Assembly: GCF_001937445.1 (NCBI RefSeq) | Contig: NZ_MSKS01000025.1 | Location: 1-64,000, forward strand | Origin: Actinomyces oris | GTDB lineage: Bacteria > Actinomycetota > Actinomycetes > Actinomycetales > Actinomycetaceae | DNA: 64,000 nucleotides | Direction of reading: 5' to 3' | In this document: positions 6,667 to 46,501 of the stretch, in pieces | Numbering within the stretch: the first letter of the stretch is position 1 | Layout of the letters: every line of letters starts with the position of its first letter | The notes under the pieces: generated by a model | Seen by the model: only the letters and a program-made list of their open reading frames with translations | What the model was told of the DNA's origin: nothing | Databases searched by the model: none | Made by a program: the position numbers and the translations under genes

Positions 6667-8769
6667 ATGCCTCCCGTGCCTTCTCCCGCCGACGCCGGCC
6701 ATGACGACACTGCGCCGACCGACCACGACAACACGCGCACCGGTCAGGCCGCTGACACCGAAGCACGGGAGGCCGAGCGAGGGGTCGCGGATATCGCGCA
6801 ACGTCTACTGCCCGTCCTGCCGGCGCTGAGAATCGGGGCGCTGCTCAGCGTCATCGGAGCTGTTGCGCTCTTCTTCGCCTGGCCGAGCGGCGTTCGCACC
6901 GCCCCCCTGTGGGGCATGCCCCCTGCCGCGATCGGCGCCTTCTGGATAGCGACCGGCATCATCCGCCCTCGGCCCTCGAGGTTCCGCGACCCCGTCCACG
7001 GCTCCCCCATCGCCGTGATACGCACTGCGGTCGCCGTCCTGGCGATGAGTGGGATCGCAGTGTTCGCCGTTTGGATGATGTGGGAGTGTCTGTCGACGTG
7101 GTCCTCCGTACTCTCCCGCACCGGGATCAACACCGTGGACCTCATTGCCATCGCCGCGGGAACGGCGGGACTGGCACTCCTGAGCATCACCGACATTCTT
7201 ATTCGCACGCTCCGGGCCGCCGTGCTGCCTCCGGAGCTCTACCAGCGGAAATGGTGGAGACGCCTCCGGAAGCCCAGAAGGCCGGATCAGTACCCCGAGG
7301 GCCCGCGACGTCGGACGCTCGCACGTGCCGCTCTGGTGCTGGCCCCCTCCGTCCTCCTTGCCGGCGCAGCGGCCGTCCCGCTGAGCCGACGTAATAAGGC
7401 CGTCCAGAAGCTCACTCCCCCATCAGTCGCCAAGACTCCTCCCGCCTACCCCACCTCCATGGCCAGCGAGCCGGCCTGGGTCAAGGACATCGACAACGTC
7501 CTGGACATTGTGGCGGGGGCCGCCGGCCCCGTCGTCCATACATCCGACGGCGTCACAGGAATTAACCCCATTGACGGAAGCACCTTATGGAGCTACGCGA
7601 GAAAGGGTGCCACATACGAGACATTCCTCGACCCCATAGGTAAACAAGCGGGGAAGAAATACGCTCGCACGCTTGTAGTCAGTCCCAGCCGCCGGCACAT
7701 CGCCTTTCGCATCTCCGGCCCCGGCAAGGTGAAGAACCTTCCAATCACTGACCAGACAACGATCACAATCGTCTTGGACACCATCACCGGCCAAGTGGTC
7801 AATGACCATATTTCCGACGACGGAACCCTTCAGATCACCGATTCTGCGATCCTGGACGGAAGTAAGATCTACACCTTCGGCAGCAAGACCGAGAAATGGG
7901 ATCTGAAGAAGCTTGGCGTCAGCATCGAAGAGGGAGGGCGAGAAAGGTATTTCGGGACTGCCGGACACTCAACATTCATTGTGGGACACTCCGAAGACCG
8001 CGTGGATGGCACAGGCATCCTGCAGTACGGGAGCCTGTCCCTTATCTCCCAGGACGACCCCAGCCAGGTTCACGCCACTCCCCCAGTCCCTCTCATGGGG
8101 AATCAGGCGCTCCCATTGGTGATCGGTGGGTGGACGGCCATCTTCAGTGACGGTACCCCCACAACTGCTAACGGCTCCGACGACCTGGGGTGGCAGATGC
8201 ATGTCGCCGACCTCGACTCACTTGCGAAGCCAGGCAGCACCAGCGCACCCACTCATCATGTCGGCCGAAGCGCCGGCATCAACGCCCCAGCATCACTGAC
8301 CACCGGGAAAATCGTCATGCTCCCGGCAACGCTGCCCCCGCCGGCACGCAGCATTGGCGACCATGACGATTTTCCTGATTGGGATAACTCCACCACTATC
8401 TCAACGATTTTCGACCCCTCAACACAGACAACACTGTCGGCCAGTCAGACATCAGGCCTCATTCGAGCAGTCGGAATCTCATCTACCAGCACAGGATCGT
8501 CCGCCGGCGCCGAGATAAAAATCTCCTCCATGGGCAACGACGCCGAAACCTCCTTCCCTATCTCGCCAGGTAGCGTCTTCTACCCCCCAGGCTATCCAAC
8601 ATACAACCCTGACATGAAGGAGATGGCTGTCACCCTCAGTCACTTCACAGACATCTTTGCACTTCACGCACCAGGAGCGAACATCATCATCCTCAACCCC
8701 ACCGCGCGCCCCAATTTTGAGAGCCGGTCCTATCGCCTCTACGGGATCACGGAGGCCACACAGCAATGA
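6667..8769 (+). CDS. Module 1 gene A: five-TM membrane protein with outside PQQ-like beta-propeller
   Basis: 700 aa from ATG 6667, chosen because ATGCC after CACAAT-n-G matches modules 7 and 9; GGAGG lies just upstream, and ATG 6658 is an alternative. Residues 1-50 are acidic and polar. Predicted TM helices are at about 55-74, 81-99, 117-140, 155-180 and 220-239, which puts the C-terminal 450 residues outside. That part carries propeller-like repeats, clearest in DGVTGINPIDGSTLWSY (about 294-310), where the N-P-x-D-G-S-x-x-W pattern is typical of PQQ-like/BamB-like blades. No PQQ-dehydrogenase catalytic residues are evident. It overlaps gene B1 by ATGA. The function is unknown; membrane-bound sensing, adhesion or scaffolding are possibilities. 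Confidence 0.88.
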   Translation: MPPVPSPADAGHDDTAPTDHDNTRTGQAADTEAREAERGVADIAQRLLPVLPALRIGALLSVIGAVALFFAWPSGVRTAPLWGMPPAAIGAFWIATGIIRPRPSRFRDPVHGSPIAVIRTAVAVLAMSGIAVFAVWMMWECLSTWSSVLSRTGINTVDLIAIAAGTAGLALLSITDILIRTLRAAVLPPELYQRKWWRRLRKPRRPDQYPEGPRRRTLARAALVLAPSVLLAGAAAVPLSRRNKAVQKLTPPSVAKTPPAYPTSMASEPAWVKDIDNVLDIVAGAAGPVVHTSDGVTGINPIDGSTLWSYARKGATYETFLDPIGKQAGKKYARTLVVSPSRRHIAFRISGPGKVKNLPITDQTTITIVLDTITGQVVNDHISDDGTLQITDSAILDGSKIYTFGSKTEKWDLKKLGVSIEEGGRERYFGTAGHSTFIVGHSEDRVDGTGILQYGSLSLISQDDPSQVHATPPVPLMGNQALPLVIGGWTAIFSDGTPTTANGSDDLGWQMHVADLDSLAKPGSTSAPTHHVGRSAGINAPASLTTGKIVMLPATLPPPARSIGDHDDFPDWDNSTTISTIFDPSTQTTLSASQTSGLIRAVGISSTSTGSSAGAEIKISSMGNDAETSFPISPGSVFYPPGYPTYNPDMKEMAVTLSHFTDIFALHAPGANIIILNPTARPNFESRSYRLYGITEATQQ

Positions 8770-9938
8770 GAGTCGCCGACAACATCCTCCGCTCGAGCAG
8801 GCAACACTCGAGCCACCTTCTGCGCATCACCGGCGCGCTGATGTCACTTTCCCTTGGGATGGCATCACTAGCAGCATGCTTCCCCATCACCAGCACCCCC
8901 TCCACGGCATCGACCCCCTCAGCTTCTTCACTCAGTACCGGTGAAGCCAAGAATGTCGAACTGGGAGAATACTTCAGCCACTCCGGCGTCGCCCCACTTC
9001 CGACCAATAGTGGCCCGCTCAGCATGTACGACACCCACAACGGTCAGACAACATTAGTAAAACACAATACGGAGGGAGTTATTGTGTGGTCCACTACAAT
9101 CACTCCTTCTGTTGCTGACATGCTCTCAGGGAAGACAACGACACCTCAGATGGCCGCCGAAGGTCAGCTTCTCGAGTCGACATCCGGATACGCAGTCGTC
9201 AGTCCTGACGGATGTCACGCGTCTCTCCTTCTACGCCCCGCTGACATGCTCGATCCCTACGAGGCACAGGAGGAGAATCGGGACTTCACCGTCGCAGACC
9301 AGCGTGCTTACGTCCTCGTCATCGAGACCGAGACCGGAAGGACTGTCCGCACTGAGGAGGTCAAGGGGCTGATCCTGGGCCAGGTGCTCACCAATGACAC
9401 CCTGGCCGTAGAGACTTCCCAGAGCTATTACCCCGGCGGGGACGGTCACGGCACCGTCACCACGTACTCCCTGGCCAAGCCGACGGCCAAGGCGGCCACG
9501 ATCCCCACGGACAAGTGGCTTGTCGGAGCCACCCAGGACTCCCTGCTGCTGGCGCCGTCCAACATGAGCCAAGGGCACTTCGGCGCTCAACCGCTGACCC
9601 GCCTGAGCGAGAGCGGCGACGTCGTCGGAACAGTCACCGGCGTGACCGACGTCTATCGGGGCGGCTGGGTCGGACGGGTCAAGGACGGCACCGACAGCAC
9701 GGATCAGTCCACCCCCACCGAGCTGGTCCACCTTGACTCCGGCGTCACCACCGACGTCGCGGGACTCAAGGTAGAGGAGGTCGCGTTACCCACCGCTGCA
9801 GGGCTCCTCGTCTCCCGGGAGACCACCACCGGTGAGGGCCAGAACAGCAAGACCACCTCCACCCCGCAGTTCTGGCTTAGCGCCGCCGACGACGGACACC
9901 CCCACACCGAGAACCTCGAGCAATTCTCCACCAAGTAG
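8766..9938 (+). CDS. Module 1 gene B: lipoprotein with conserved C-terminal tail
   Basis: 390 aa. The ATG overlaps the stop of A1 (ATGA). The signal peptide ends in lipobox LAAC (Cys about 38), followed by a Ser/Thr/Pro-rich linker. The mature part contains the motifs shared by all B proteins: VVSPDG near residue 145, a beta-rich stretch YVLVIETETGRTVRTEEV, LGQVLTNDTLAVET, YYPGGDGHG and TDKWLVGA-type. The last residues are FWLSAADDGHPHTENLEQF-STK. The stretch VIETETGRTVRT resembles a propeller blade, so B may also be beta-propeller-like and bind its partner A on the outer face. I recognise no known family. Confidence 0.88.
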   Translation: MRVADNILRSSRQHSSHLLRITGALMSLSLGMASLAACFPITSTPSTASTPSASSLSTGEAKNVELGEYFSHSGVAPLPTNSGPLSMYDTHNGQTTLVKHNTEGVIVWSTTITPSVADMLSGKTTTPQMAAEGQLLESTSGYAVVSPDGCHASLLLRPADMLDPYEAQEENRDFTVADQRAYVLVIETETGRTVRTEEVKGLILGQVLTNDTLAVETSQSYYPGGDGHGTVTTYSLAKPTAKAATIPTDKWLVGATQDSLLLAPSNMSQGHFGAQPLTRLSESGDVVGTVTGVTDVYRGGWVGRVKDGTDSTDQSTPTELVHLDSGVTTDVAGLKVEEVALPTAAGLLVSRETTTGEGQNSKTTSTPQFWLSAADDGHPHTENLEQFSTK

Positions 9939-9973: not shown

Positions 9974-12127
9974 ATGCCACCTACCGCCGATCTCGAAGCC
10001 GCAGACGAGGCCACCGATGACCAGCTCGCCGCAGCACTCGAGCATCGCAACCAACGCTTTCAGCGCACCGTCACCGCTCTGCGAGCTCTGCTCGCCGGCG
10101 GCGTTTTCGCCTTGCTTGCAGCGGTCGCCCTGTACTTCATCTGGAACAGCGGCATCAAGGGCGTGGGACACATAGCGCTCGGCCGCTCATGGAGCCGGTT
10201 CTGGCTCATTGTTCCGCTCTGGCTAGTGGGCATGGTCTGCTGGATGGATCCTTCCGACTACCGCACCACCGACAACACGCACGACTTTCTCACACGCGCC
10301 TTCACCGTTCTCAAGTTTCTTCCAGTGGCGGGCGTTGCGGCATGGATCGTCTACACCTGTCTTCCGGTCCTCGATCTGTGGCAGGAAATCGCAGCCACCT
10401 ACGGCGTCCGCCTCGGGGAGCTGCTTGCCCTCATGATGGGCATCACCGCATTCGGGCTGATCGCCATGGCTCACATGTCCCTCAATGCCTTCCGCTCTTC
10501 CTTCGTCTCCGACGAGGCTCCCTTGGATGACGAGGCTACCGTTGAAGATTCGGATTCCAAGCCGACCCACCCTACGGACGCCACTTCCCACAGGCACCGC
10601 CCTCGCCCGAAAACCCCATCTTTTCTCAGCCCTCTCACCACGGCTCTCGCGCTCCTGCCAACCATTGCTCTGGTCTCCGGATTCGCCATCCCCTACCTCA
10701 CGTTGAAGAGCACGCACGCCTCCACCCCCACCATCACGCAGACGACAAGCTCCGAACTTAAGGCCTCCCAGCTACCCACCTACCCCACATCCTTCGGGTC
10801 TCAGAAGGCCTGGGTGAAGGATGTCGAGGACCTCGTCGATATTGTCAGTGGGGCCGCTGGCCCGATTCTTCTCACGAATGACACCATCACCGGCATCAAC
10901 CCAAGCGACGGCTCGACTCGCTGGCAGTACCGCCGGGCCGGCTCGCAGTTCCAGACCGGGGCGGATTCCAAAGATACTGTTGCATCAGGGAATCAGGGTC
11001 TCATCACCAGCCCGAATGGCCGCTACGTGGCAGCGATTGCTGACGACCCTGTCGTCTACACGTCACTGACGTCACAACCGAAGCCCCTGAAAGGTGAGTC
11101 CCCGAGGACAACGATCGTCATCGATGCCGTCACCGGGAAGGCGGTGCTGGAGCACCCCCAAGACGTGAACGACCATGACGATACACTTCAGCTGAGCGAT
11201 TCAGCGCTCCTTGACGGGGCGGTCGCCTACTCCTTGAGCGATGGATCACAGATGTGGGATCTCAGGAAACTGCGCGTCAAAAGCAGTGGTAGTTCCGACA
11301 GAACACACATAGGAACAGCCGGCCAATCCAGCTTCATTCTTCAAAGTATCGACGAAAGCGACGCAATTACTGTGATTTCGCAATCCGATCCGTCTCACCC
11401 GAAGAAAGTCGCTGGCGTACTCCACGAGCGCAAGCCGCGCCGGGTCATCACCGCGCAGGGGTGGATCGGCATCTACGACGACCACGCCGAGAGAAACGTC
11501 AAGGACGATCCACCGACCGCACGTCGCGCGCACGCAGTCAGCATTGACGCCCTCGCTGAGGCACCCAACGCGGACACCCGCACCTTCGACATGGGATCGA
11601 CCCTGGGAATCAACGCCGCAGCATCACTCCCCACCGGAACGCTGTCCGTGCTCCCCGACAGCTCGCCGGTTGGAAGGATTGACAGCGATGAGGACTACGA
11701 GGACATCTTCACCCAGAAAGGATTCAACGCCGTCAGTACGATCTTCGACCCAGCCACCATGACGGTAACATCCTTTGGGCAGGCACCCCACTACGTCGCA
11801 GCCGTAGGGGTCACCACGACCGACCCAGAGGATGGAAAGCCCGCAACAGCATCACGTCATCTCCCGGAGGCAAGCACGGGCGATGGTCAGATCACGATCA
11901 AGACGGGCGATGGCAGCATCATCCCCGTATGCGACCTCGAACCAGGATCCATTTACCGACCACCATTATCCTACAACTCCAGCCTAGAACCCTTAGCAGG
12001 CGAACACACCTACCCTCCGACTATCTCCGCACTCAGCACCCCCGGAGCCACCATCGCCATCCTCGATGATTCACCAGAATTCACTTTCAGATCACACGCC
12101 TTCCGGCTCTATGGCATTCCAGGGTAG
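9974..12127 (+). CDS. Module 2 gene A: five-TM membrane protein with PQQ-like propeller
   Basis: 717 aa, starting 35 nt after B1 with GAAGG as a possible ribosome binding site. It has the same plan as A1: acidic N-terminus with a basic patch, TM1 around LLAGGVFALLAAVALYFIW, four more helices in the first 270 residues, then the outside domain. The propeller motif is GINPSDGSTRWQYRRAG. Other shared blocks are AGPILLT, TIVIDAVTGKAV, LSDSALLDG and GTAGQSSFI. It is closest to A8 (shared SGIKGVG, YPTSFG, DTITGI and WQYRRAG), which shows that the array did not grow only by copying neighbours. A2 and B2 are separated by 6 nt rather than overlapping, as are A8 and B8. Confidence 0.9.
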   Translation: MPPTADLEAADEATDDQLAAALEHRNQRFQRTVTALRALLAGGVFALLAAVALYFIWNSGIKGVGHIALGRSWSRFWLIVPLWLVGMVCWMDPSDYRTTDNTHDFLTRAFTVLKFLPVAGVAAWIVYTCLPVLDLWQEIAATYGVRLGELLALMMGITAFGLIAMAHMSLNAFRSSFVSDEAPLDDEATVEDSDSKPTHPTDATSHRHRPRPKTPSFLSPLTTALALLPTIALVSGFAIPYLTLKSTHASTPTITQTTSSELKASQLPTYPTSFGSQKAWVKDVEDLVDIVSGAAGPILLTNDTITGINPSDGSTRWQYRRAGSQFQTGADSKDTVASGNQGLITSPNGRYVAAIADDPVVYTSLTSQPKPLKGESPRTTIVIDAVTGKAVLEHPQDVNDHDDTLQLSDSALLDGAVAYSLSDGSQMWDLRKLRVKSSGSSDRTHIGTAGQSSFILQSIDESDAITVISQSDPSHPKKVAGVLHERKPRRVITAQGWIGIYDDHAERNVKDDPPTARRAHAVSIDALAEAPNADTRTFDMGSTLGINAAASLPTGTLSVLPDSSPVGRIDSDEDYEDIFTQKGFNAVSTIFDPATMTVTSFGQAPHYVAAVGVTTTDPEDGKPATASRHLPEASTGDGQITIKTGDGSIIPVCDLEPGSIYRPPLSYNSSLEPLAGEHTYPPTISALSTPGATIAILDDSPEFTFRSHAFRLYGIPG

Positions 12128-12133
12128 GTAGAC

Positions 12134-13303
12134 ATGGAATCACAGAATCACTCACACACAGCTCTGCGAACCATACGGAAGAGTAGGACCGCCTGTGCCG
12201 CACTCGCTCTACTGACGATCTCCACACTTGCCGCCTGTCACACACAGCCCACCGCACCTGCTCCGACAACCGCAACATCCCTCTCATCGGCGATGCTCTC
12301 CACAGAGGAGAAACAGAGCTGCCTTGAGGAGGGCAAGTACAACGGGCCGTCATATCTTCCTGTGAAGGGCGCAGTCGTCTGCATCACCAGACAATTCAAC
12401 ACAGAAGGCCACGACTCGACACTCGTCGCCCGGTTCGACGCACCCGACGACGATCCCCAATGGGCAGTATCAGTATCCCCGCAGGCCGCCGACTTCACCG
12501 ACTATGAAAGCGACATGTACTCGGCACAACAGCAGGCGGGAAACATCCTCCAGGCGCGCACTTCTGGATACGCGACCGTCAGCCCGAACGGACAATACAT
12601 CTCCTTGGTGCTGCGTCCCCCGGAGGCGGAAGAGGATCATCCCGGACGACTTCTGAAGACGCCGTTCAACCTGGCCGCTCAACGCACGACGGTCATTGTG
12701 CTCGACACAGCCTCCGGTAGGCCCGTACGTACAGTGGAAGTCTCCGGGCTGGTCCTGGGTCAGGCCCTCACCAGTGACTCACTCGCCGTCGAGACCGCTG
12801 ACGCCTACTATCCCGCGGGGAAAGGCAAGGGACGCATCAGCGTCTTCTCGCTGACAGAGCCATCCGCCTCCCCCACGTCCTTCCCCACCAGCCTATGGCT
12901 CGCAGGCTCCGGAAAGAGTTCTCTACTTCTGTCCTCGCAGCCTCCTGACGCCAGGAGCATCTCCACCTCAACGGTGACGCAGGTCGATCTTCACGGCAAG
13001 CACCTCGCCACCTTCACGGATTCCTCCGGCATCATCCTGGGCGGGTGGGTGCGTCGAAGCACGTACCTGTCCAACGAGAAGCGGTTTCACCGCGAGGTGG
13101 TGGACACCAACTCCGGAGCGGTCTACGACGATGACGCCGACCGCGTGTGGACGCACCGTGTCTCCACGGGGCCGGGACTCGTCATCGGTCAGAAGAGTTC
13201 TGATGAGAACGGCACGATCACCTTCACCCCGCAGTTCTGGCTCAGCGCCGCCGACGACGGCCACCCCCACACCGAGAACCTCGAGCAGTTCTCCACCAAG
13301 TAG
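12134..13303 (+). CDS. Module 2 gene B: lipoprotein with conserved C-terminal tail
   Basis: 389 aa, ATG 6 nt after the A2 stop. The signal peptide has lipobox LAAC (ISTLAACHTQP). Shared blocks are ATVSPNGQYISLVLRPPE, TTVIVLDTASGRPVRTVEV, LVLGQALTSDSLAVET, AYYPAGKGKG, LWLAGSGKSSLLLSSQ, and GGWVRRSTYL followed by VVDTNSGAVYDDD. The tail is FWLSAADDGHPHTENLEQF-STK. The last 60-70 nt and the following gap are nearly identical to the B1/A2 junction. Its closest relative in the array is B8. It is probably lipid-anchored and faces outward. Confidence 0.9.
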   Translation: MESQNHSHTALRTIRKSRTACAALALLTISTLAACHTQPTAPAPTTATSLSSAMLSTEEKQSCLEEGKYNGPSYLPVKGAVVCITRQFNTEGHDSTLVARFDAPDDDPQWAVSVSPQAADFTDYESDMYSAQQQAGNILQARTSGYATVSPNGQYISLVLRPPEAEEDHPGRLLKTPFNLAAQRTTVIVLDTASGRPVRTVEVSGLVLGQALTSDSLAVETADAYYPAGKGKGRISVFSLTEPSASPTSFPTSLWLAGSGKSSLLLSSQPPDARSISTSTVTQVDLHGKHLATFTDSSGIILGGWVRRSTYLSNEKRFHREVVDTNSGAVYDDDADRVWTHRVSTGPGLVIGQKSSDENGTITFTPQFWLSAADDGHPHTENLEQFSTK

Positions 13304-13339: not shown

Positions 13340-15385
13340 ATGCCACCTACCGCCGAGCACCCAGCCGATGCCGACACTGGCGCCGCCGCAGAGCCCCCTG
13401 CTCGTCAGCACCGTCGCGAATGGTCCAAGCGCCTCACCAGCATCCTGAGGGCGCTTCGGGTCGGTTTTCTGCTCGCATCGGCCACCGCCGTCGGGCTGTA
13501 CTTCCTGTGGGGTATCGGCCTGTCCCACATGTTCACTCCGCTGCGCAAGCAGTGCCAGTATCCGGTTCTCATCGCCGTCGGGCTCTGGGCCGCCTGCGCC
13601 GCCATCTGCACCAAGAGCTTCAGTGAGTGGGCGGAGCAGAACGTGGGCACCCCCAAGCCACCGAAGATCCCCCTCATCCTCCTGCCGGCGGGCATCGCGG
13701 GCTGTGCGGGCTACACCGTCTGGCGGGTCATCCTGCTGTGGCGTGAGGTCCTGGACGCCGGCTTTCCTGTCGGTGAGCTGCTGGCCGTAGCCCTCGGTCT
13801 GGCCGCCACTGGATTGTTGGCGACATGCGACGCCGTTCTCCGGGGGATCCGAGCATGTCACCCTCGTGAATCAGCCCCCAACAACCGGGGCCGTGGCCGG
13901 CGCCCTTGGGTCCCAACACTCAGGCCGGCGCCGCTCAGCCGGCGCACGGTTGCTGCTACAGGCGCTCTGATCCTTCTGCCATCTGTTGTCCTGACGGGCA
14001 TTGCTGCGGTCCCGCACTACCGCGGGGCCGCCCCCGTGCACCACACGACCGCGGCGCCCATCAGCGACTCGCAGCTACCGTCGCTCCCTTCCACTCTCGG
14101 CTCTCAGGCCGCATGGAGCAAGGACGTCGACGGGATGCTCGACGTCGTCGGCGGCGCCGCCGGCCCCGTGGTCCTCACCACGACCGGCCTCATGGGGCTC
14201 AACCCGAAGGACGGCTCCGTTCGCTGGACGTACCAGCGTGATGGCGCCGTGTACTCCGCGCTAGTTTCGGAGTATCTCCCACATTCTTTGGGCAATATCT
14301 ACCTCATCACCAGCCCCGACCACCGCCATATCGCCCTGCGCCTGAGCGGCCCAGGTGTCATCATCAACGGCGGGAAACAGAATGAGGGCAGCCCGGACCG
14401 CCAGGACGTCCAGTCTTACGTCTCCCTGGTGCTCGACTCCGTCACCGGCAAAGTGACTCACGAGCACGTCAGCGCAGGAGGGGCACTCCAGCTCACGGAC
14501 AGTGCCCTGCTCGATGACACAACCGTCTACTCGCTGGACAAGGACACCAAGCTCTGGGACTTCCAGAGTGCCGGGCTTCAGGTGCCGCCCCTCGGAACGG
14601 GCGCCTATATCGGTACGGCCGGGCATGCGTCCTTTCTCATCGAGACCGGCAAGGACCTGCATCTGTCCCTCATCCCGCAGGCACACCCAGACCAGATCAC
14701 TCCCGCTCCCAACCTGCTCGAGAACCATCTAGGGCGGGTGGTGGTCATCGACGGATGGGTTGCCTCCTTCGACAACAATGCGTGGTCACGGGCCACCACC
14801 ATGACTGAGACCGGCCATGCCTACGCGGCGAACCTTGACGGCCTGGCCGGCGTGCCAGGTGCCGACACCCAGACCTACGACCTGGGCGTCACGCTGGGCG
14901 TCAATGCTCTGGCGTCCTACGCATCAGGAACACTGGCGATGCTGCCATCGAGCCCACCACCCAACAACGCCGACAGGTTTCCTGACTTCAGAGAGTTCTG
15001 GGACGGAGTGCCGTCGGTCGGGCAGGTCTTCGACCCGCACAGCAAGGCAGTGAAACCCGCTCGAGAGTCGGCAGGAATCTCTGGTATCGCCGTCGGCATC
15101 ACCTCCCGGGCAACAGAGACGAACCCCGGTGGTCAGATCACCGCCCGCACCCCTGACGGCCACTCCGCGTCCCTGCCCATCGCCCCCGGGACAACGTTCT
15201 ACGCGCCGGGGACCGGCGACCCCTCCAACGCGAAACTCAACGACTTGGCGGTTGCGCACGCCGGCGGTTCCTACCTGTCGGCAGTGAACACCCCTGGCGT
15301 CACACTCGTCACTCTGAACGCCGCACCTCCAGGAGATGGGGCGTCACAGTACGTCAGGATCTACGGCATCACGGGAGGGAAATGA
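13340..15385 (+). CDS. Module 3 gene A: five-TM membrane protein with PQQ-like propeller
   Basis: 681 aa, one of the shortest intact A proteins, 36 nt after B2. TM1 lies around FLLASATAVGLYFLWGIG, with further helices at about residues 75-95, 112-135, 145-170 and 205-230. The outside part starts with LPSLPSTLGSQAAWSKDVD and has the blade motif GLNPKDGSVRWTYQRDG, then VSLVLDSVTGKVTHEH, LTDSALLDD and GTAGHASFLIETG. It ends IYGITGGK, like the other copies (FRIFG/IYGI). The last codons overlap the ATG of B3. No catalytic motif is visible. Confidence 0.9.
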   Translation: MPPTAEHPADADTGAAAEPPARQHRREWSKRLTSILRALRVGFLLASATAVGLYFLWGIGLSHMFTPLRKQCQYPVLIAVGLWAACAAICTKSFSEWAEQNVGTPKPPKIPLILLPAGIAGCAGYTVWRVILLWREVLDAGFPVGELLAVALGLAATGLLATCDAVLRGIRACHPRESAPNNRGRGRRPWVPTLRPAPLSRRTVAATGALILLPSVVLTGIAAVPHYRGAAPVHHTTAAPISDSQLPSLPSTLGSQAAWSKDVDGMLDVVGGAAGPVVLTTTGLMGLNPKDGSVRWTYQRDGAVYSALVSEYLPHSLGNIYLITSPDHRHIALRLSGPGVIINGGKQNEGSPDRQDVQSYVSLVLDSVTGKVTHEHVSAGGALQLTDSALLDDTTVYSLDKDTKLWDFQSAGLQVPPLGTGAYIGTAGHASFLIETGKDLHLSLIPQAHPDQITPAPNLLENHLGRVVVIDGWVASFDNNAWSRATTMTETGHAYAANLDGLAGVPGADTQTYDLGVTLGVNALASYASGTLAMLPSSPPPNNADRFPDFREFWDGVPSVGQVFDPHSKAVKPARESAGISGIAVGITSRATETNPGGQITARTPDGHSASLPIAPGTTFYAPGTGDPSNAKLNDLAVAHAGGSYLSAVNTPGVTLVTLNAAPPGDGASQYVRIYGITGGK

Positions 15386-16560
15386 TGGGCAAGCACCCCC
15401 GAGAAGCACTCACTTTCGTGCCTCCTGTCGGCGCCACACCACACACGTTCTTCATCGCACTGTGCGCCATCGCCGTCACCCTGACGCTTTCCTTGACCGC
15501 CTGCACCCCTCGCAGCTCACACCCCGCTCACGAGTCTCTCGCGATCACCTCGCGCACCCTGAAAAACGTCGATGAGCTCGATACGCCATCCACCCCCACC
15601 AACGGCGGGACGCATGTTTCAACAGCCCTGAAAAGCAACATCCTCACGGTTGCAAGCATCAACTCCACAGAGTACACACCTCAATGGGCCCTCGACATCA
15701 GCCTGACCAATGCCCCTGACAGCAGCATCTCGTGGTCGAACTATTCAGACCACGGCCTGACAGGGCGACTGATGTCGACAGCTGTCGGCGCACTCGTCGT
15801 GAGTCCCAATGGGAACTACGTCTCTCTCGCGTTACAGGTGACTCGGAAGCAGGAGGCAGAGCCGCAGCTCACCGATCAGTCGAGCACTGTGGAACTGGCC
15901 TCACAGCAACGCGGTTACGTCGTCGTTCTCGATGCCAGAACCGGGAATACCGTCCTCACCCGGGAGTTCTCCGGTTTCATCCTGGCGCAGGCCCTCACCA
16001 ACGATCACCTCGCCGTCGAGACCGCTCACGCCTACTTTCCCTCTGGGGAGGGCAAAGGCACCATCACCGCCGTCCCACTTTCCGGCTCTGCCTCCCCCAC
16101 CACAACTCCCACCGATCAGTGGCTCGTAGGAGCCGGCCGGGACTCCCTGCTCTTGTCAACGCAACCGCTGTACTACGACATGTGCAGCAGTCCCTGCGGT
16201 CCTTTCACCCTGACCCGTATCAGCACGAATGGTCACAAACTGGCTACTATCACACATGCAGACAGGGTCTACCGCGGAGGCTGGGTCGAGAGGTACAAGG
16301 ATCCCGCCCCCGATGGTGAGGACGAAAAGGAGCCTGCGCAGGCAGCACGAGAGGTGGTCGATGTCGACACCGGAGCCGCCACCGACCTCAACGGCGAGCA
16401 CGCCCAGGAGACAGGGCTGCCCACCGGTCCTGGGCTTCTCGTGATGAGGAGAACCGATCCCGACAAGCAGAGCTCGCCGTCGGTGCCGGTCTCCTGGCTC
16501 AGCGCCGCCGACGACGGCCACCCCCACACCGAGAACCTCGAGCAGTTCTCCACCAAGTAG
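15382..16560 (+). CDS. Module 3 gene B: lipoprotein with conserved C-terminal tail
   Basis: 392 aa. The first ATG overlaps the A3 stop and a second ATG follows directly. The lipobox is LTAC (LSLTACTPR). It has the B-family blocks VVSPNGNYVSLALQ, GYVVVLDARTGNTV, ILAQALTNDHLAVET, AYFPSGEGKG and DQWLVGAGRDSLLLS. A short insertion, DMCSSPCGPF, contains two cysteines that could form a disulphide. The tail differs at its first residue (SWLSAADDGHPHTENLEQF-STK). The gap to A4 shares AAAGACCCTCACGCCATGCC with the gap before A3. Confidence 0.88.
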   Translation: MMGKHPREALTFVPPVGATPHTFFIALCAIAVTLTLSLTACTPRSSHPAHESLAITSRTLKNVDELDTPSTPTNGGTHVSTALKSNILTVASINSTEYTPQWALDISLTNAPDSSISWSNYSDHGLTGRLMSTAVGALVVSPNGNYVSLALQVTRKQEAEPQLTDQSSTVELASQQRGYVVVLDARTGNTVLTREFSGFILAQALTNDHLAVETAHAYFPSGEGKGTITAVPLSGSASPTTTPTDQWLVGAGRDSLLLSTQPLYYDMCSSPCGPFTLTRISTNGHKLATITHADRVYRGGWVERYKDPAPDGEDEKEPAQAAREVVDVDTGAATDLNGEHAQETGLPTGPGLLVMRRTDPDKQSSPSVPVSWLSAADDGHPHTENLEQFSTK

Positions 16561-22115: not shown

Positions 22116-22197
22116 CAGCTTGGTTCGGCCCCGTTGTGACGGCCTGATCTGGCCCCGCGTGCGACTTGCCGGGGTGTTGACGGTCTGAACTGGCCCC
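22111..22197 (+). repeat. Left terminal repeats of the IS21-family transposon
   Basis: Three related units each end in GGCCCC: TGACAGCTTGGTTCGGCCCC, then two copies of TGACGG-n-CTGA-n-CTGGCCCC. Multiple transposase-binding repeats at each end are typical of the IS21 family. Confidence 0.8.
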
Positions 22198-31651: not shown

Positions 31652-31690
31652 GGCCACAAGCCTCGAAGCCCCACACCAAGGTCGGGGCAA

Positions 31691-31783
31691 GGGAATGTGA
31701 AGATTCGGTCAAGCCGGTCTCCGGGTAGACATGGGGCCAGAACAGACCGTCACCATGGGGCCAATCGAAGTTGACAGAGCCAC
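31691..31783 (-). repeat. Right terminal repeats of the IS21-family transposon
   Basis: GGGGCCAGAACAGACCGTC (from 31733) and GGGGCCAATCGAAGTTGACA (31757-31776) are inverted copies of the left-end repeats. The stretch 31691-31730 probably holds the promoter of the copper cluster. Confidence 0.75.
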
Positions 31784-31799
31784 TGGTAGGAGCCTCGTC

Positions 31800-33053: not shown

Positions 33054-33072
33054 CGGCCCGGAAGACAGCACG

Positions 33073-38357: not shown

Positions 38358-39451
38358 GAGCCGCACATCCTCTAAGTTCCCACGCCTTCTCCACGCTCCG
38401 GCGACTGACGGCACTCACCGCAGTCATGACGCTCACGCCTACCATGGTTTCGTGCAGCATTGGGGAGAGTAACGGCGATCCAGTCATCTCCTCCCTCACC
38501 GCACGGAAGGCAGATGCTACCGTGCCGCGGAATTCGAAGAACGACATGGACAACGAACCATTGTCATCGGCCGTTGGCACCGTCAGCATGATCACATCAG
38601 ACGAGAACGGAAAGAAAGGTGCCGTCTCCGGCGACATGACAACGACCGTGGTGAGTCGAGAGCGTTCCACTAATAATTTCCAGTGGGCGGTTTCTATCAA
38701 ACCCGCAGTCGCTAACCAGGAGAGAACCGAATACGCGGACAACACCCAAAGTGCGATGAGCGAGAACATGGACCTTTCGTCGACGGGGAGCGCCGTCGTC
38801 AGTCCTGACGGACGGTACCTGTCACTGATCCTTCTTCCCGCCGAGCAGCAGTCGGGAGAGACGGCAGCTGACCAACGCACACATATCGTCGTCCTTGACA
38901 CCACAACCGGCAAGAAGGTTCGGAACGCCACGGTCTCCGGGGTCATCCTGGGGCAGGCGCTCACCAACAGCGCCCTGGCCGTGGAGACCGCGCAGAACTA
39001 TTTCCCGGCCGGCTCCGGGAAGGGAACCATCACCACCTTCTCCCTGACAGACACCAGCGCTCAGCCCTCCTCCTTCCCCACCGATAAGTGGCTGGTGGGC
39101 GCCACCCGGGAAGATCTCATGCTCGCCCCCAATCTTCTCCCGGACTTTTGCCCCAGTAGATGTTGGCTCACGACCGTCTCCCTGATGAACACTGGTGGGA
39201 CCACGACCGGGAGCGTCTCCGGAGTGACTGCCGTCCACCCCGGCGGATGGATCCACCGGGCCGCAGACCCGAAGTCAGATGAGCAGCAACTCGTCAATCC
39301 CAGTACCAAACGGACGATCGACATCACGGGAAAGAACGTCTCCGAACGCGGCGTACCAACTGGCCTCGGACTCGTCATCACCCAGGTGGTCCGCACCGGG
39401 AAGAGCTCGGTAGACCACAAGCCGGTCTTCTGGGCTCAGCTCGACCGATGA
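38354..39451 (+). pseudogene. Module 7 gene B: lipoprotein, +1 frameshift removes the tail
   Basis: 365 aa as read. Signal peptide with lipobox-like MVSC, then VVSPDGRYLSLILLPAEQ, THIVVLDTTTGKKV, VILGQALTNSALAVET, YFPAGSGKG, DKWLVGATREDLMLAP and VHPGGWIHRAADP. At 39432-39434 the run GGG replaces the GG seen in the other copies (TTCTGGCTCAGC), so the frame shifts and ends at once with FWAQLDR. The lost frame continues intact after the shift: SSTDDGHPHTENLEQF-ENH to a TGA at 39495-39497. The damage is a single base and the rest looks functional, so it may be recent or phase-variable. Confidence 0.85.
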
Positions 39452-39521: not shown

Positions 39522-41729
39522 ATGGAATCCACGTCTTCTCAGCCCACCTCGTCCTCAGCCTCCGAAGCCGACGAGACCGCCAGTGCCGACGCCGAGGTAT
39601 CTCCGGCGCCCCTCGATCACGACGATGCCGTGCTCAGCAATCACCCACGCCTGCTGGCTTACATGCGCGCTCTGCTCACCGGCAGCGTCATCGCACTGAT
39701 CGTGGCAGTCGTCCTGTTCTTCGCCTGGAGCAGCGGCATCAAAGGCGTGGGTCGGGTAGCGGTCGCTCAGTCATGGAAACGGTGCGCACCGCTGCTGGTG
39801 CTGTGGATCATCGGCGCATCCGTATGGCCCACGCCTTACTACCGTACCGCCGGGAAGAGCAGGCTCCTGACCGGTGTCATCACCGCCCTCAAGCTCCTGC
39901 CCGTGGCCGCGGTCGCGGCATGCACCGTCTACGCCTGCCTTCCGGTCCTGCAACTGTGGCGGGAGACGTCCGCCACCTTCGGCGTCCGTCTTGGCGAGAT
40001 CCTGGCTTTCACCATGGGCATCGCCGCATGCGGGTTGATCGCGATGGCGCATATCGGGCTCTGGGCGGCTCGCTCGGTCGTCCTCCCTACCGAGGAGCCG
40101 CCCAGCGGCGATCCGGCTCCCGAGGACCTGGATCTCTGGCTCAGCCACACTCGGGACGCCGGCCTATGGCAGAGATGCCTCCGAGCCCTGCGAGGACACC
40201 CCTTTCGACACCTCAGCACGGCTACCCTCGCGCTCCTGCCCGCAATTGCCTTGGTGACAGGCTTCGGTATCCCCTACCTCACGGTGAAGAGCACATATGC
40301 CGACACCCCCACTGTCATACAGACCACCGCATCTGCTATCGATGATGCCCACCTCCCCGCCTATCCCACATCTTTCGGAGCGCAGAAGACGTGGATGAAG
40401 GATGTTGACGGCTTCCTCGACATCGCCGGCGGCGCCGCGGGGCCCGTTCTCCTCACCAAGGACACGATCACCGGGATCGACCCCGCTGACGGATCGGCGC
40501 GCTGGCAGTACCGCCGTGCCGGCGCTGAGTTCCGCAGCTGGCGACTTGAGACGGATCCCGTCGCGTCAGGGGACATGGGACTCATCACCAGTCCGAACGG
40601 GCGATACGTGGCAGTCGTTGCCACAGATCCGAAGATCTACTCGTCCATGAGCCCAGAATGGCGTGAACTCGATGGCACGTCGCCGGTTACGACGCTGGTG
40701 CTCGACGCCGTCACCGGGAAGATTGTTGTGGAGCATCCCCGTCAGACCGAGGACCACGAAGACACATTTCAACTCAGCGATTCAGCTCTTCTTGACGGTA
40801 CCGTCGCCTACTCCCTGACTGACGGCTCACGGATGTGGGACCTCAAGGACATCCACCTCTACAAAGATACTGTACCGAATCCCGTCGCCGCCTACGCGGG
40901 CACGGCAGGACACGCGAGCTTCATTTATGGATACGATAGCGGTAGCGACTCTCTCATAGTTCTACCTCAGGCTGACCCCTCCCAGCCCAGGAAGGTTACC
41001 GGAGCCCTTCACGAGCAGGAATTCGGCGAGATCATCTCCGCCAGAGGGTGGATCGGCGTCTACGACGATCGCACCCCAACACAGCAACATGAGAACGACG
41101 AACTGAAGGCACGACCAGCCCACGCCATCAGCCTGGACGCCCTCAGCGAGGCGCCCGGTGCGGACACTCGTGCCTTCGACTTGGGCACAACGCTGGGCAT
41201 CAACGCCCCAGCATCCCTCTCCACCGGCACCGTCTCAGTCTTCCCGGCGACGACGCCGGACGGACACTCCGTCGGGATCAGGAGCCTTGAGGAGTCTTCA
41301 ACATGGAAAGGATCCAGCAGTATCGGAACGGTCTTCAATCCTGCCACCATGACGGTGGCACCGCTCAACCAGTCTCCACACTACGTCGCGGCAGTGGGAA
41401 TCACGGCAACGAACCTTGAAAACGGCGCACCTGCCATAAAGACAACAGAAGGAAGTACCGCCGTTATCACCACAGGCGATGGCCGCATCACGATCAAAAC
41501 GGGAGACAACAGCATCATTCCGCTTACAGAGATTGAGCCAGGATCAACTTACTACCCGCTAAAGTCAGGAGAATATAACTCCACCATGGAGGACACTGCC
41601 GTCAGCCGGGACGATTATCACCACATCTCCTCAATGAGTACTCCCGGAGCCACTCTCACCATCGTCAACAATACCCCTACTCTCCCCATAGCATCACAGT
41701 CTTTCCGAATCTACGGGTTCCCCGGGTAG
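39522..41729 (+). CDS. Module 8 gene A: five-TM membrane protein with PQQ-like propeller
   Basis: 735 aa, the longest A protein, beginning 24 nt after the out-of-frame B7 tail. The acidic Ser/Ala-rich N-terminus is followed by TM1 (TGSVIALIVAVVLFFAWSSG) and four more helices. The outside part has YPTSFGAQKTWMKDVDGF, AGPVLLTKDTITGIDPADG, WQYRRAGAEF, LVLDAVTGKIVVEHP, LSDSALLDG and YAGTAGHASFIYG. It is the sister of A2, sharing SGIKGVG, DTITGI and the 6-nt spacing to its B gene. The C-terminus is FRIYGFPG. There is an unusually long insert near residues 600-650 with Gly/Thr-rich turns. Confidence 0.9.
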   Translation: MESTSSQPTSSSASEADETASADAEVSPAPLDHDDAVLSNHPRLLAYMRALLTGSVIALIVAVVLFFAWSSGIKGVGRVAVAQSWKRCAPLLVLWIIGASVWPTPYYRTAGKSRLLTGVITALKLLPVAAVAACTVYACLPVLQLWRETSATFGVRLGEILAFTMGIAACGLIAMAHIGLWAARSVVLPTEEPPSGDPAPEDLDLWLSHTRDAGLWQRCLRALRGHPFRHLSTATLALLPAIALVTGFGIPYLTVKSTYADTPTVIQTTASAIDDAHLPAYPTSFGAQKTWMKDVDGFLDIAGGAAGPVLLTKDTITGIDPADGSARWQYRRAGAEFRSWRLETDPVASGDMGLITSPNGRYVAVVATDPKIYSSMSPEWRELDGTSPVTTLVLDAVTGKIVVEHPRQTEDHEDTFQLSDSALLDGTVAYSLTDGSRMWDLKDIHLYKDTVPNPVAAYAGTAGHASFIYGYDSGSDSLIVLPQADPSQPRKVTGALHEQEFGEIISARGWIGVYDDRTPTQQHENDELKARPAHAISLDALSEAPGADTRAFDLGTTLGINAPASLSTGTVSVFPATTPDGHSVGIRSLEESSTWKGSSSIGTVFNPATMTVAPLNQSPHYVAAVGITATNLENGAPAIKTTEGSTAVITTGDGRITIKTGDNSIIPLTEIEPGSTYYPLKSGEYNSTMEDTAVSRDDYHHISSMSTPGATLTIVNNTPTLPIASQSFRIYGFPG

Positions 41730-41735: not shown

Positions 41736-42935
41736 GTGAAATCTAAGATCCCACACAGCATGGCGTTCATAAGAAATCGAAGCACAGCGTTCATGGTGGC
41801 GCTTCCACTGCTGCTGTCACTCACGGTGACCGCCTGCCACTCCAATTCACGTGCGTCATCTTCGAACACGGCGCCACCCATGTCACCAACGTCTCTCACA
41901 GCGGAACAGATGAAGGACTGCCAAGACGAGGCGCATACCTGGACAAGCAGTCCTGGGTCACACAACCCCTCCTACCTTCCCGCGCAGGGAGCGGACATCT
42001 GCGTCATCCAGTCATTCAACGCCAAGAACCAGGAATCGACACTCATTGCACGATACGAGGCCTCTGACAAAGAGCCCGTGTGGGCGATGTCCCTGACGCC
42101 GAGGATTGCAGCCTACAGACGTCACGACAACGGCATGGATGTTCAGTCAGCGCAGGAGCTGGCCCGAGACGTCCTCAACTCCCGTACCGCAGGCTATGCA
42201 ACCGTGAGCCCGAACGGGAAGTACCTCTCCCTGGTGCTGCGTCCACCGGAAGTTGCCGACGACAGCCCCCGCCCCGCTCGGCAGACACCTGTCGTCCCTG
42301 CCGAGCAGCGGACGACCGTTGTCGTTCTTGACGCAGTTTCCGGGAAGCCGGTGCGCACGGTGGAGGTCTCCGGGCTGGTCCTGGGCCAGGCCCTCACCAG
42401 CGACTCCCTCGCCGTCGAGACAGCTGACGCCTACCATCCCGCGGGGAAAGGCAAGGGGCGTATCAGCGTCTTCTCACTGACGGACACAACGTCATCTCCG
42501 ACGTCTTTCAACACAAGCCTGTGGCTCGCAGGCTCCGGAAAGAGCTCTCTTCTCCTGTCCTCGCAGCCTGCCCACTCCCACGACAGCGCGACGACCTCCA
42601 CGGTGACGCAGGTTGATCTTCACGGCAAGCACCTGGCCTCCTTCACCAACTCCAGCGAGATCCTTCTCGGCGGGTGGATCAGACGGTGCACCTATCTTCC
42701 CGATGAGGGTCGAATTCACTGGGAGGTCGTCGACACCAACTCTGGCACGGTCTACAACGAGGACACCGATAGCGCCGTGGCGCGACGCGTCCCCACTGGT
42801 CCGGGGCTCCTCGTCAGCCAAGGTGTCGTCAACGACAAGGGATACCGGGAGTCAGGCACACCACGCTTCTGGCTCAGCGCCGCCGACGACGGACACCCCC
42901 ACACCGAGAACCTCGAGCAGTTCAAGAACAACTGA
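41736..42935 (+). CDS. Module 8 gene B: lipoprotein with conserved C-terminal tail
   Basis: 399 aa starting at a GTG 6 nt after the A8 stop. The lipobox is VTAC (SLTVTACHSNS). Shared blocks are ATVSPNGKYLSLVLRPPE, TTVVVLDAVSGKPVRTVEV, LVLGQALTSDSLAVET, YHPAGKGKG and LWLAGSGKSSLLLSSQ. GGWIRRCTYL is followed by VVDTNSGTVYNED. The tail is FWLSAADDGHPHTENLEQF-KNN. It is the closest relative of B2; the last three residues differ while the preceding 19 are identical. Confidence 0.88.
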   Translation: MKSKIPHSMAFIRNRSTAFMVALPLLLSLTVTACHSNSRASSSNTAPPMSPTSLTAEQMKDCQDEAHTWTSSPGSHNPSYLPAQGADICVIQSFNAKNQESTLIARYEASDKEPVWAMSLTPRIAAYRRHDNGMDVQSAQELARDVLNSRTAGYATVSPNGKYLSLVLRPPEVADDSPRPARQTPVVPAEQRTTVVVLDAVSGKPVRTVEVSGLVLGQALTSDSLAVETADAYHPAGKGKGRISVFSLTDTTSSPTSFNTSLWLAGSGKSSLLLSSQPAHSHDSATTSTVTQVDLHGKHLASFTNSSEILLGGWIRRCTYLPDEGRIHWEVVDTNSGTVYNEDTDSAVARRVPTGPGLLVSQGVVNDKGYRESGTPRFWLSAADDGHPHTENLEQFKNN

Positions 42936-43100: not shown

Positions 43101-45296
43101 ATGCCTCCTACGCCCGACGCCGACATCGACGACTACGGCACCGATCCCAGCACCCGGCCGGACGCAGCCGACTCCAGCGACGAGACTTCGACGGCGCCGG
43201 ACACAGGAGAGGCCGAGGGCCATCCCGGCCGCAACACCACTGAGGCCAACCAGGAGGCAACCGACGCCGCCGACAGCGAGGGCAAGACCGAAGGCACGAG
43301 CGAGGGCGAGCCCTTCCCACCGCGCGGCGTCCTCGCCCTGCGCGCCCTGCGCTGGGGCGGAGTGTTAGCGATGTTGGTCTCCACGGCCGCCATCTACCTG
43401 CTGTGGCCTGAGGGAGCTCGGCTCGCCTGGGACCCTCGCACCCCCGTCGGCAGCCTCGGAACCACCGCCTACCTAATTGGTCTCGCAGTCGTCACCACAT
43501 TCGGATGGCTCCTGAGTCCACAACAGTCACGTCACCCTGGGCGGCGGCTTGGCATATCTGCAGCACTCATCCTCATCGGCGGATTAATGGCAACCGCCAT
43601 CACGGCTAGCAAGTGGTGGCACGACTACCAGGTCACCGGTTTTTCTCAACCCACCCTGAACATCATTCCATGTATTCCTGCATCAATCACCATCGCCCTG
43701 CTGGCAAACTCAATCCTCCACTACACACAAAACTATGTTCCCCGAAATCCGATCATCAAATGCGACCTCACCTACTGGGGGCGCCTCCACGAGCCAACAA
43801 CCGATAGTCAAGCAGGAGACGAGAAGAAGAAAAGAAAAACTGCAGCGATCAGCATCAGCTCTAGACAGCGCACAACCTACCTCAGCATCGCCATCCTGCC
43901 GACACTGCTGTTCGCCGGCCTTACAGCAGTCCCCACCTTTCATCGGACGGAATCACACACGACAGCAAAATCTGGCAGCATTGAAACTCCCTCGATGCCA
44001 ACATCGCTCAACAGTGAAGCCGCCTGGAGTGCAGAGTTCGTCAACATCATGGACATTGTCGGAGGAGTTGGAGGACCCATTGTTCTGAGCGCAGACGGAA
44101 TCACCTCCCTCAATCCTTCCGACGGCACGACCCGTTGGTCGTACCGACACCCAGGAGCCCACTACTTAGCCGACGACATACGGGACAAGAAAGGAAGACT
44201 GGTTGTCAGCCCGGACCGGAAGTATGTCGCCGCAAGAATGGAGACAAGCGCCATTCTGGACTACCCCGATGATGGCATCTTATCCAGAACAGTAGTGTTC
44301 GATGCCCTCACTGGCGACATCATCCTGGAGGCAACCAACTCCGGTGGCGCACTTCAATTGACAGACTCCACCCTCCTTGACGGGAATACGGCCTACTCAC
44401 TACACAGCAAATCAAAACTATGGACGCCCTCATCTCATGACGGAGAAGATTCAAGGGCAGCGCCCACATACTGGGGTTCAGCCGGACATCATACTTTTAT
44501 CCTCAGCGTCTCTTACGATGAGTACTCCGGGGACCACTACGTCCCTCACGCGACTTTGACAGTTGCCCGCGATACAGATCCGAGCGTCACGTCCGAAGTT
44601 ACTGAAGTCGTAGTCGACCCCGTCTACAGCAGACATTATATTCCTATAATCGGCGGATGGATAGCCAGATACAACACCGAGTCCATGAACTCAAATGGCG
44701 GGGCATCCGCCGAGGCAATCTCCTTGGATTCAGCCGCACATGAATCAGAGCCCCACACAGCCATTCCCCTCGGAGTGACCTCAGGACTAAACTCCTACGC
44801 GTCAATTGCCTCGGGATGCATCGTCACCTACCCGCCCTCTGACGCCACCTCATCCGATGATTTCGAAGTGTCGATCAACAAAGAAGGAGCGGCAAGAGTT
44901 TCCTCCATCTTTGCCCCCTCCACACAGACAGTATCAACTCCTGCCCACCACTCCGGGATTGCCGGAGCACGAATCGGGTTCACATCAGTATTCCACGAGG
45001 GTACACATATGGCTGCGATCACCATCCAGCCCGGAGATGGGAGCCCAGAGACTAGTATCCCACTCTCTCCGAACACCACCTACTTACCCCCATCCTCCTA
45101 CGTAGACGGCCTTAAATACAGCCCTCACGAAATGATCACCGAAGATTACCAGCCCGCCGACAGGATTGTCATGAACACCCCGGGGGCCACTATTGTCGCA
45201 CTCAATGTCACCGACAGAACTGACGAGGCGTCCTACCTTGACCCCAAACCAACTCAAGGAAGCACGTTCCGCATCTTCGGGGTGACAGGGAAATGA
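43101..45296 (+). CDS. Module 9 gene A: five-TM membrane protein with PQQ-like propeller
   Basis: 731 aa. The N-terminus is acidic as in A7 (ADSSDETSTAPDTGEAEGH). TM1 lies around LAMLVSTAAIYLLWPEG, with four more helices to about residue 275. The outside domain has GGPIVLSADGITSLNPSDG, then TTRWSYRHPGA, VVFDALTGDIILEA, LTDSTLLDG, WGSAGHHTFIL and IIGGWIARY. It ends FRIFGVTGK. From about 43500 on the base composition is visibly richer in A and T than in modules 1-6, which suggests a different history or relaxed selection. ATGA overlap with B9. Confidence 0.88.
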   Translation: MPPTPDADIDDYGTDPSTRPDAADSSDETSTAPDTGEAEGHPGRNTTEANQEATDAADSEGKTEGTSEGEPFPPRGVLALRALRWGGVLAMLVSTAAIYLLWPEGARLAWDPRTPVGSLGTTAYLIGLAVVTTFGWLLSPQQSRHPGRRLGISAALILIGGLMATAITASKWWHDYQVTGFSQPTLNIIPCIPASITIALLANSILHYTQNYVPRNPIIKCDLTYWGRLHEPTTDSQAGDEKKKRKTAAISISSRQRTTYLSIAILPTLLFAGLTAVPTFHRTESHTTAKSGSIETPSMPTSLNSEAAWSAEFVNIMDIVGGVGGPIVLSADGITSLNPSDGTTRWSYRHPGAHYLADDIRDKKGRLVVSPDRKYVAARMETSAILDYPDDGILSRTVVFDALTGDIILEATNSGGALQLTDSTLLDGNTAYSLHSKSKLWTPSSHDGEDSRAAPTYWGSAGHHTFILSVSYDEYSGDHYVPHATLTVARDTDPSVTSEVTEVVVDPVYSRHYIPIIGGWIARYNTESMNSNGGASAEAISLDSAAHESEPHTAIPLGVTSGLNSYASIASGCIVTYPPSDATSSDDFEVSINKEGAARVSSIFAPSTQTVSTPAHHSGIAGARIGFTSVFHEGTHMAAITIQPGDGSPETSIPLSPNTTYLPPSSYVDGLKYSPHEMITEDYQPADRIVMNTPGATIVALNVTDRTDEASYLDPKPTQGSTFRIFGVTGK

Positions 45297-46501
45297 GTAT
45301 GGAAAAACAGGAAAGTACAGCATCTTCTGTTCTTCTCAATCGCCGGCACCTCATTCAAATCACTGCCGCAGCGTCACTGGTCGCGCTCTCATTAACTCCT
45401 TACCCGTCCGACACTCAGTACGCTCCTGAAGCTCCTCGAGTCACGGTAACCGACCTTGACTTGAAAAAACTTCGACACGATGACCTCCAAATTCGACACA
45501 ACTACAGATTCAGTGAGTTCGAGCTGCGAACAGCCTTCGGAGGAATCAACACCTTCTCCTACCAGCACAACAACGGCAGCATAGGTGACACATCCACGTT
45601 GACCGTCATCAGTTACGACCCGAAGACTAAGAATCCTCAATGGGCGAAGTCACTGAGGGCGTTCCAGCACTCAACACCTTCACGTACATACAGTACAGCT
45701 TACTTGACGGACCCAGAGAACCAGATGGATTCTCGTACTTCTGGAACACTGATTTCCAGCCCTGACGGACGGCATGTATCAGTACTTCTTCACGTCACCG
45801 CGTTCTATAAAAGCAATGCGAACTACCCTGACATCACTATATACAGTCGAAGCACTCACGTCGTCGTTCTTGACGCCAGAACGGGTGACGTGGTTCGCCA
45901 GGAGAAGTTGCCCGACCTGGTCCTCGGACAAGCGCTAACGAACAACGCCCTCGCTGTAGAGACAGCCCAGGATTTCTTTCCCGGCGGCTCCGGTCGAGGT
46001 AAACTTCATGTTTTCTCACTGGAGAAGAAATCTGATCCAGCCGCCGAGATCCCCGTCGATCAGTGGCTGGTCGGCGCCAGCAGGACAACACTACTGCTGT
46101 CTTCAGAAACAGCACTCCAAGGGCGCGTCTCAGAATTTCCAGACACCACCACGGTCACACAGCTAGACATCCATGGCCATGTAGTGAATACAATCCCCAA
46201 CGTCAGGGAGATTGTGTTCGGAGGGTGGATACGAACAGTGCCCACCTCTTCGAATGAATCAGAACATGATGCCGAGGCTAGCGAGAAGTCCAATCTTCTG
46301 CACGTCGACACTGGCGCAAAAGTGGACGTGTCCGGAAAGTTAGCCTGGATCTCGGACACACCCACAGGCACTGGAGTATTCGTTCAGGACGAGGTACATA
46401 CTGATGACGGCAAGACCGAGTACGTTCCTGTCTTCTGGCTCAGCTCGACCGATGACGGCCACCCGCACACCGAGAACCTCGAGCAGTTCAAGGACGAATG
46501 A
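45293..46501 (+). CDS. Module 9 gene B: tail-bearing protein without lipobox cysteine
   Basis: 402 aa. Unlike its siblings the hydrophobic leader (LNRRHLIQITAAASLVALSL) is followed by TPYPSD with no cysteine, and it carries a twin arginine, so it may be a Tat-type secreted or membrane-anchored form. Shared blocks are ISSPDGRHVSVLLHV, THVVVLDARTGDVVRQEKL, LVLGQALTNNALAVET, FFPGGSGRG, DQWLVGASRTTLLLSSE and VFGGWIRTVPT. The tail is FWLSSTDDGHPHTENLEQF-KDE. It is the last gene of the array and is followed 102 bp later by the convergent ribokinase gene. Confidence 0.85.
   Translation: MSMEKQESTASSVLLNRRHLIQITAAASLVALSLTPYPSDTQYAPEAPRVTVTDLDLKKLRHDDLQIRHNYRFSEFELRTAFGGINTFSYQHNNGSIGDTSTLTVISYDPKTKNPQWAKSLRAFQHSTPSRTYSTAYLTDPENQMDSRTSGTLISSPDGRHVSVLLHVTAFYKSNANYPDITIYSRSTHVVVLDARTGDVVRQEKLPDLVLGQALTNNALAVETAQDFFPGGSGRGKLHVFSLEKKSDPAAEIPVDQWLVGASRTTLLLSSETALQGRVSEFPDTTTVTQLDIHGHVVNTIPNVREIVFGGWIRTVPTSSNESEHDAEASEKSNLLHVDTGAKVDVSGKLAWISDTPTGTGVFVQDEVHTDDGKTEYVPVFWLSSTDDGHPHTENLEQFKDE

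Follow-up and report, generated by a model that had tools for sequence, protein, structure and literature searches.

The stretch of Actinomyces oris DNA considered here (contig NZ_MSKS01000025.1, positions 1-64,000; below, the window) contains a tandem array of nine two-gene modules at positions 6658-46501 of the plus strand. Each module consists of a gene A, encoding a propeller protein predicted to have five transmembrane (TM) helices, and a gene B, encoding a predicted propeller lipoprotein. Reading frames for A and B, nine of each, alternate in the order ABABABABABABABABAB, as had been proposed in an earlier note made from the sequence. The repetition of the module is far beyond chance: the A profile scores at least 656 bits in the eight unbroken A genes and 487 and 227 bits in the two parts of A5, and the B profile scores at least 351 bits in all nine B genes. 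The modules occupy approximately 30 kb of the 3.23 Mb genome, or approximately 40 kb together with an insert in module 5.

The start codon of B overlaps the stop codon of A by 4 nt in modules 1 (A1, 6658-8769, with a possible alternative start at 6667; B1, 8766-9938), 3 (A3, 13340-15385; B3, 15382-16560), 4 (A4, 16596-18704; B4, 18701-19990), 6 (A6, 33070-35139; B6, 35136-36086), 7 (A7, 36195-38357; B7, 38354-39451) and 9 (A9, 43101-45296; B9, 45293-46501). It lies 6 nt downstream of the A stop in modules 2 (A2, 9974-12127; B2, 12134-13303) and 8 (A8, 39522-41729; B8, 41736-42935, with a GTG start). Such spacing had been claimed for nine consecutive modules and is indeed found in these eight, but A5 (20010-22115) and B5 (31731-33053) are parted by an insert of approximately 9.7 kb (22105-31781). 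The latter carries IS21-type istA/istB genes on the plus strand and genes for a copper P-type ATPase, a multicopper oxidase, a histidine kinase and a response regulator on the minus strand. A5 also contains a single in-frame TAG at 21462-21464, and its last codons fall at the insert boundary (approximately 22104). Homology of B5 to a relative resumes at 31782, and thus the original start of B5 was probably downstream of 31731. A. oris CCUG 34288 has this insert at an identical position, with an unbroken A5 frame; the part of the insert at 23606-26997 is 99.4% identical in the two strains, and the neighbouring aligned pieces are approximately 90% identical.

Two more B genes are altered. B6 is a short form that lacks approximately the last 105 profile positions, and six orthologues have the same form. 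B7 has a frameshift near its C-terminus.

In the structure model of A2, five TM helices are followed by a propeller (residues 254-717), and the topology is backed by hydropathy and by lysines and arginines in the inner loops. The propeller is predicted to have approximately eight blades and to face outward, with the N-terminus inside; thus the five helices and the propeller described in the earlier note are seen in the model, and the outside placement is a prediction. The same note had described B as a lipoprotein in all nine modules. A signal peptide with a lipobox was found by pattern or by eye in eight of the nine B proteins (LAAC in B1), B9 having neither a lipobox nor a cysteine. The model of B2 is also a propeller, and the B propeller is predicted to be smaller than that of A. 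The profiles of A and B are homologous (hhalign, 97%, expectation value E=3.9e-11), so that, judging by profiles and models, A and B are homologous predicted propellers, which extends the original picture of the pair.

Inheritance of modules in the A. oris/naeslundii clade

Trees of A and of B were constructed for 45 pairs. When looser rules than those given below were applied, A was followed by B in 62 cases and not in 55; the trees include 43 of these 62 pairs and the two split A5-B5 pairs, whereas 18 pairs from more distant genomes and one pair of A. oris S64C with a lost B were left out. All 45 pairs fall into matching orthologue groups, forming 11 types and two singletons (the trees were read by eye). 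The correlation of the A and B distances is 0.79, a value reached in none of 2000 permutations, which ignore relatedness. Since A and B of every pair belong to the same orthologue group, the trees argue that the modules are inherited as units.

The array in this clade contains one to nine modules. Genome G006 has types 1, 2, 4, 5, 6, 6', 7, 8 and 9, G052 has types 1, 3, 4, 6, 6', 7, 8 and 10, A. oris CCUG 34288 has types 4, 5, 6 and 7, A. naeslundii has types 6 and 7, and G059 has type 7. In A. oris S64C, A1 stands alone and is followed by types 4, 5, 6 and 10; this A1 is not in the tree and was placed by position and score only. The order is conserved among species, save for types 4 and 5, which are swapped in Actinomyces sp. 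ZJ308. Hence the suggestion that copies differ by shuffling was mostly wrong, and it is whole modules that are gained or lost.

The array is flanked by clpC (2290-4890, minus strand) and a pfkB-family kinase gene (46604-47620, minus strand). Both flanks are the same in G006, A. oris CCUG 34288, A. oris S64C, G052 and G059. In A. naeslundii pfkB lies beside the array in the stretch fetched. Neither gene flanks the 13 other tested loci (ZJ308 was left out of this test).

The ratio of nonsynonymous to synonymous substitution rates (dN/dS) in orthologues is 0.24-0.65 for A and for B (20 comparisons) vs 0.06-0.10 for clpC and 0.11-0.17 for pfkB. The corresponding pN/pS ratio is 0.43-0.57 overall in four module groups, and exceeds 1 in only four of 211 overlapping 40-codon segments (1.3 and 1.06 in A4, 1.03 and 1.08 in B5). 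Thus A and B evolve fast under constraint, and the diversifying selection that had been expected is not what these ratios indicate. Open frames together with dN/dS below 1 point to a retained function.

Two minus-strand frames near the left flank have no Pfam match at E<=0.001. One (264-1958) is kept near clpC in five relatives, and the other (5069-5722) was found in none of 19 other tested loci.

The patch at the 3' end of B

Eight of the nine modules have in common a patch of 39-60 bp at the 3' end of B; only B6 has no copy. The 39-nt patch encodes DDGHPHTENLEQF, and zero to two bases differ in the eight copies of the window. In B1 it is situated at 9888-9926, and the further copies, also on the plus strand, start at 13253, 16510, 19940, 33003, 39447, 42885 and 46451; in B7 the patch runs on across the stop codon and past it. 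Similarity drops to background on both sides of the patch in an ungapped profile. All 20-mer blocks with three or more copies in the window lie at the 3' ends of B. Some blocks with three copies are found a little further downstream in G006 and G052, where the next A begins. In the more distant genome G056 repeated blocks are also found at B ends, in addition to blocks inside recent duplicates. The B tails of other clades are unlike this one; within some arrays they resemble each other.

Codon identity in the tail among paralogues of one genome is 0.53-1.00 vs 0.30-0.81 expected from codon usage, and synonymous identity is above this expectation in 12 of the 13 tail columns. Other conserved columns are nearer to expectation (0.43 vs 0.38 in A, 0.45 vs 0.37 in B outside the tail), a few single ones also being well above it. 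The patch persists in two A. oris arrays although the preceding B gene has been lost. Finally, G006 lacks module 3, and its B2-A4 junction matches the B2 of the window on the left and the A4 of the window on the right, the switch occurring inside the patch. Because of this hybrid junction, it is probable that modules come and go by recombination in the patch. The latter may be read as a recombination seam whose copies repeated crossovers have kept similar. Constraint on the tail of the protein would be a second cause, and the data do not separate the two.

Distribution of the family and its partners

With the A core profile, 36 of 213 genomes of the family gave a match at E<=1e-5, namely 31 of 49 Actinomyces genomes and five genomes of other genera. 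At the level of the order, eight of 396 genomes match, of which five are Actinomyces and three are weak. Thus, by profile matches, the family is almost confined to Actinomyces. A. oris CCUG 34288, A. oris S64C, Actinomyces sp. ZJ308 and A. naeslundii NCTC 10301 are the named records among the matches. As for B, its profile has a match in 37 of the 213 genomes at E<=1e-3. A stricter threshold of E<=1e-15 leaves 20 Actinomyces genomes with B. A is present in 19 of these as well; in the exception, G016, the match covers 140 of 406 positions. Because the searches scored no more than 8 or 16 candidates in each genome, counts per genome are lower bounds.

In the fetched stretches 100 A genes passed the length and score filter. 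Of these, 57 are followed by B and five have B before them only. The filter also dropped weak B partners, including two in G012 and one in G046 that had been counted under the looser rules. Together with the matching orthologue groups, these counts bear out, within the clade, the earlier claim that the pairing is kept.

More distant loci have other arrangements. G056 has a far-diverged ABABABABABABABA array with seven A-B pairs (L044 and L045) and no clpC or pfkB flank in the fetched stretch. Five of its seven B forms have no lipobox match and start with a TM-like segment instead, and several share a different tail. At four loci (L051, L059, L061, L070) a B-type propeller is situated on a multi-TM protein, as judged by hydropathy. 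In G187, which belongs to another genus, another protein of approximately 460 residues takes turns with A in an array of four A-type genes (L058, 1-13366); the two of its four copies that were tested have no Pfam match. Given G056, the multi-TM B forms and the alternating protein of G187, the paired membrane layout appears to recur with a varying partner.

Some A genes stand without B. In tandem arrays consisting of A only (L028, L029, L030, L031) the TM part is largely missing from some members, and a lipobox is present in two. Single A-like genes at separate loci were observed in five Actinomyces genomes (L072-L076), all of which carry A-B modules elsewhere.

Possible functions

No curated family above its cut-off, no defence model and no paper was found that names the A-B system. 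As far as literature and database searches show, the array is undescribed, in agreement with the earlier note. A has recognizable but low similarity to the PQQ_2 domain (PF13360), 14 of 28 A proteins matching it at E<=0.01 (best E=2.4e-5). The scores shown, 14.7, 20.7 and 17.8 bits, are below the gathering cut-off of 27.6, and a PQQ_2 search of the genome itself gave no matches. Among 21 B proteins, PQQ_2 was found in one alone at E<=0.01. Protein Data Bank (PDB) sequences gave no match to B and a single match to A up to E=1, an alcohol dehydrogenase (E=0.25 over 22 residues).

The nearest named family is that of Rv3212 (NF050114), a single gene that is not known to be part of a paired array. 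A weak alignment covers a TM segment and the first PQQ-like blade, but three A proteins score 13.8, 14.7 and 16.8 bits against a cut-off of 150. Two reports place Rv3212 in pull-down lists of mycobacterial division proteins (PMC6872210, PMC8093794), which is no more than a weak lead.

Two known arrangements resemble the array as a whole. The staphylococcal lpl arrays are tandem, variable sets of lipoprotein genes at a fixed locus; they are not known to have a membrane partner gene, and no Pfam match to this lipoprotein family was found in the 21 B proteins at E<=0.01. In the SusC/SusD-type pairs, which also occur in many copies, an integral membrane protein and a lipoprotein act together at the surface, as A and B may do. 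However, A would be a TM-anchored propeller and not a barrel, and the Pfam searches gave no transporter or SusD match for A or B.

Our preferred reading, a tentative one that falls a little short of an even chance, is that the array encodes a set of cognate two-propeller surface complexes, with recognition as the most likely role. Each module would encode one such complex of the cell envelope. A would be held by its five TM helices, N-terminus inside, and would display the large outward propeller, whereas B would be held by its lipid anchor and would display the second, smaller one. The two proteins would be translated together from the coupled start, form a physical complex and bind a ligand. 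The nine modules would be distinct versions of long standing, whose divergence predates that of the species. Whole A-B units would be kept, lost or gained at one locus through homologous recombination in the patch at the end of B, a process that would keep every A together with its own B. On the surface of this bacterium of oral biofilms, each module may then have its own ligand or neighbour to bind. The choice of recognition reflects a lineage-specific family whose copy number varies and whose proteins are predicted to be exposed; it is a choice among readings.

Several observations weigh against this interpretation. Duplication of units would by itself yield coupled starts and matched trees, so that these do not imply binding, and the sequence favours recognition no more than assembly or another task in the envelope. 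The two trees disagree partly in their deep branches, as they do for types 3 and 9. The earlier note had held that A and B regularly occurring apart would speak against joint action. Within the clade they are kept together; outside it they are partly apart, as 12 of the 31 Actinomyces genomes with A have no clear B (E<=1e-15). Further, among the 100 scored A genes, 38 lack a neighbouring B at the thresholds used, 21 of them in three A-only arrays (G004, G013, G011). The loss in G006 is the only one traced to a junction inside the patch, and the junction upstream of A4 in A. oris CCUG 34288 (L017/L078) looks like a different kind of deletion. There, a frame of approximately 24 codons joins an A1-like start to a B tail, which by eye is an apparent scar of a deletion of modules 1-3. 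Lastly, A and B evolve faster than the two neighbouring genes, yet show no overall positive selection.

A broader version of this reading is possible, though doubtful. It describes a modular Actinomyces recognition system of cassettes, each encoding a cognate pair of propellers (one polytopic, one lipid-anchored), in which the homogenised patch at the end of B would add or drop cassettes without unpairing them, species would carry different subsets, and A would be a general platform with an exchangeable partner. The last point is suggested by the A-type lipoproteins, the TM-anchored B forms and the unrelated-looking protein in another genus.

The main rival, itself unlikely, is an envelope scaffold. 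A would hold clients or partners in membrane or wall assembly in the manner of BamB or EMC1, B would be a client-facing or regulatory lipoprotein, and the copies would serve different clients. BamB is a membrane-attached non-enzymatic propeller and a partner of an outer-membrane assembly machine, and the predicted fold of the A ectodomain is indeed a propeller. However, A differs from this type in its five TM helices, in its PQQ_2 scores below the cut-off and in its occurrence with B in a tandem array of a Gram-positive bacterium.

It is rather improbable that this is a weakly constrained tandem family, in which recombination in the patch keeps making copies with little specific function. The dN/dS values, the nonsense codon of A5, the frameshift of B7 and the many congeners without the family are consistent with such a process. 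On the other hand, module types are common to several species, the frames are open and the ratios are well below 1. Of the 18 genes of the array, A5 and B7 (at its end) are the only ones that look broken, B6 being short in all orthologues.

There is little to recommend a defence or interbacterial conflict module, that is, a receptor, an immunity protein or a toxin-neutralising surface protein, beyond the fact that this is a variable, lineage-specific array of surface proteins. PADLOC models of anti-phage defence gave no family for 24 A and 22 B proteins, and A8, the sole protein tested, had no phage or plasmid match. The chromosomal locus is fixed, and no toxin-like partner was seen in the array.

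Finally, a quinoprotein-like enzyme, suggested by the PQQ-type blade motifs and the PQQ_2 matches, is highly implausible, as the vicinal cysteine pair that marks PQQ-dependent (pyrroloquinoline quinone-dependent) dehydrogenases is absent from all eight A proteins of the window examined (zero to three cysteines in the propeller), and the only PDB match is the short one above.

Thus approximately 30 kb of the chromosome is devoted to a protein pair that none of the libraries used names. The patch at the end of B offers a simple mechanism, visible in the sequence, by which the copy number of a tandem array may change while its two genes stay matched. If the A-B pairs form cognate surface complexes that recognize partners, the array would offer a repertoire, open to direct test, that underlies strain-specific interactions in dental plaque.
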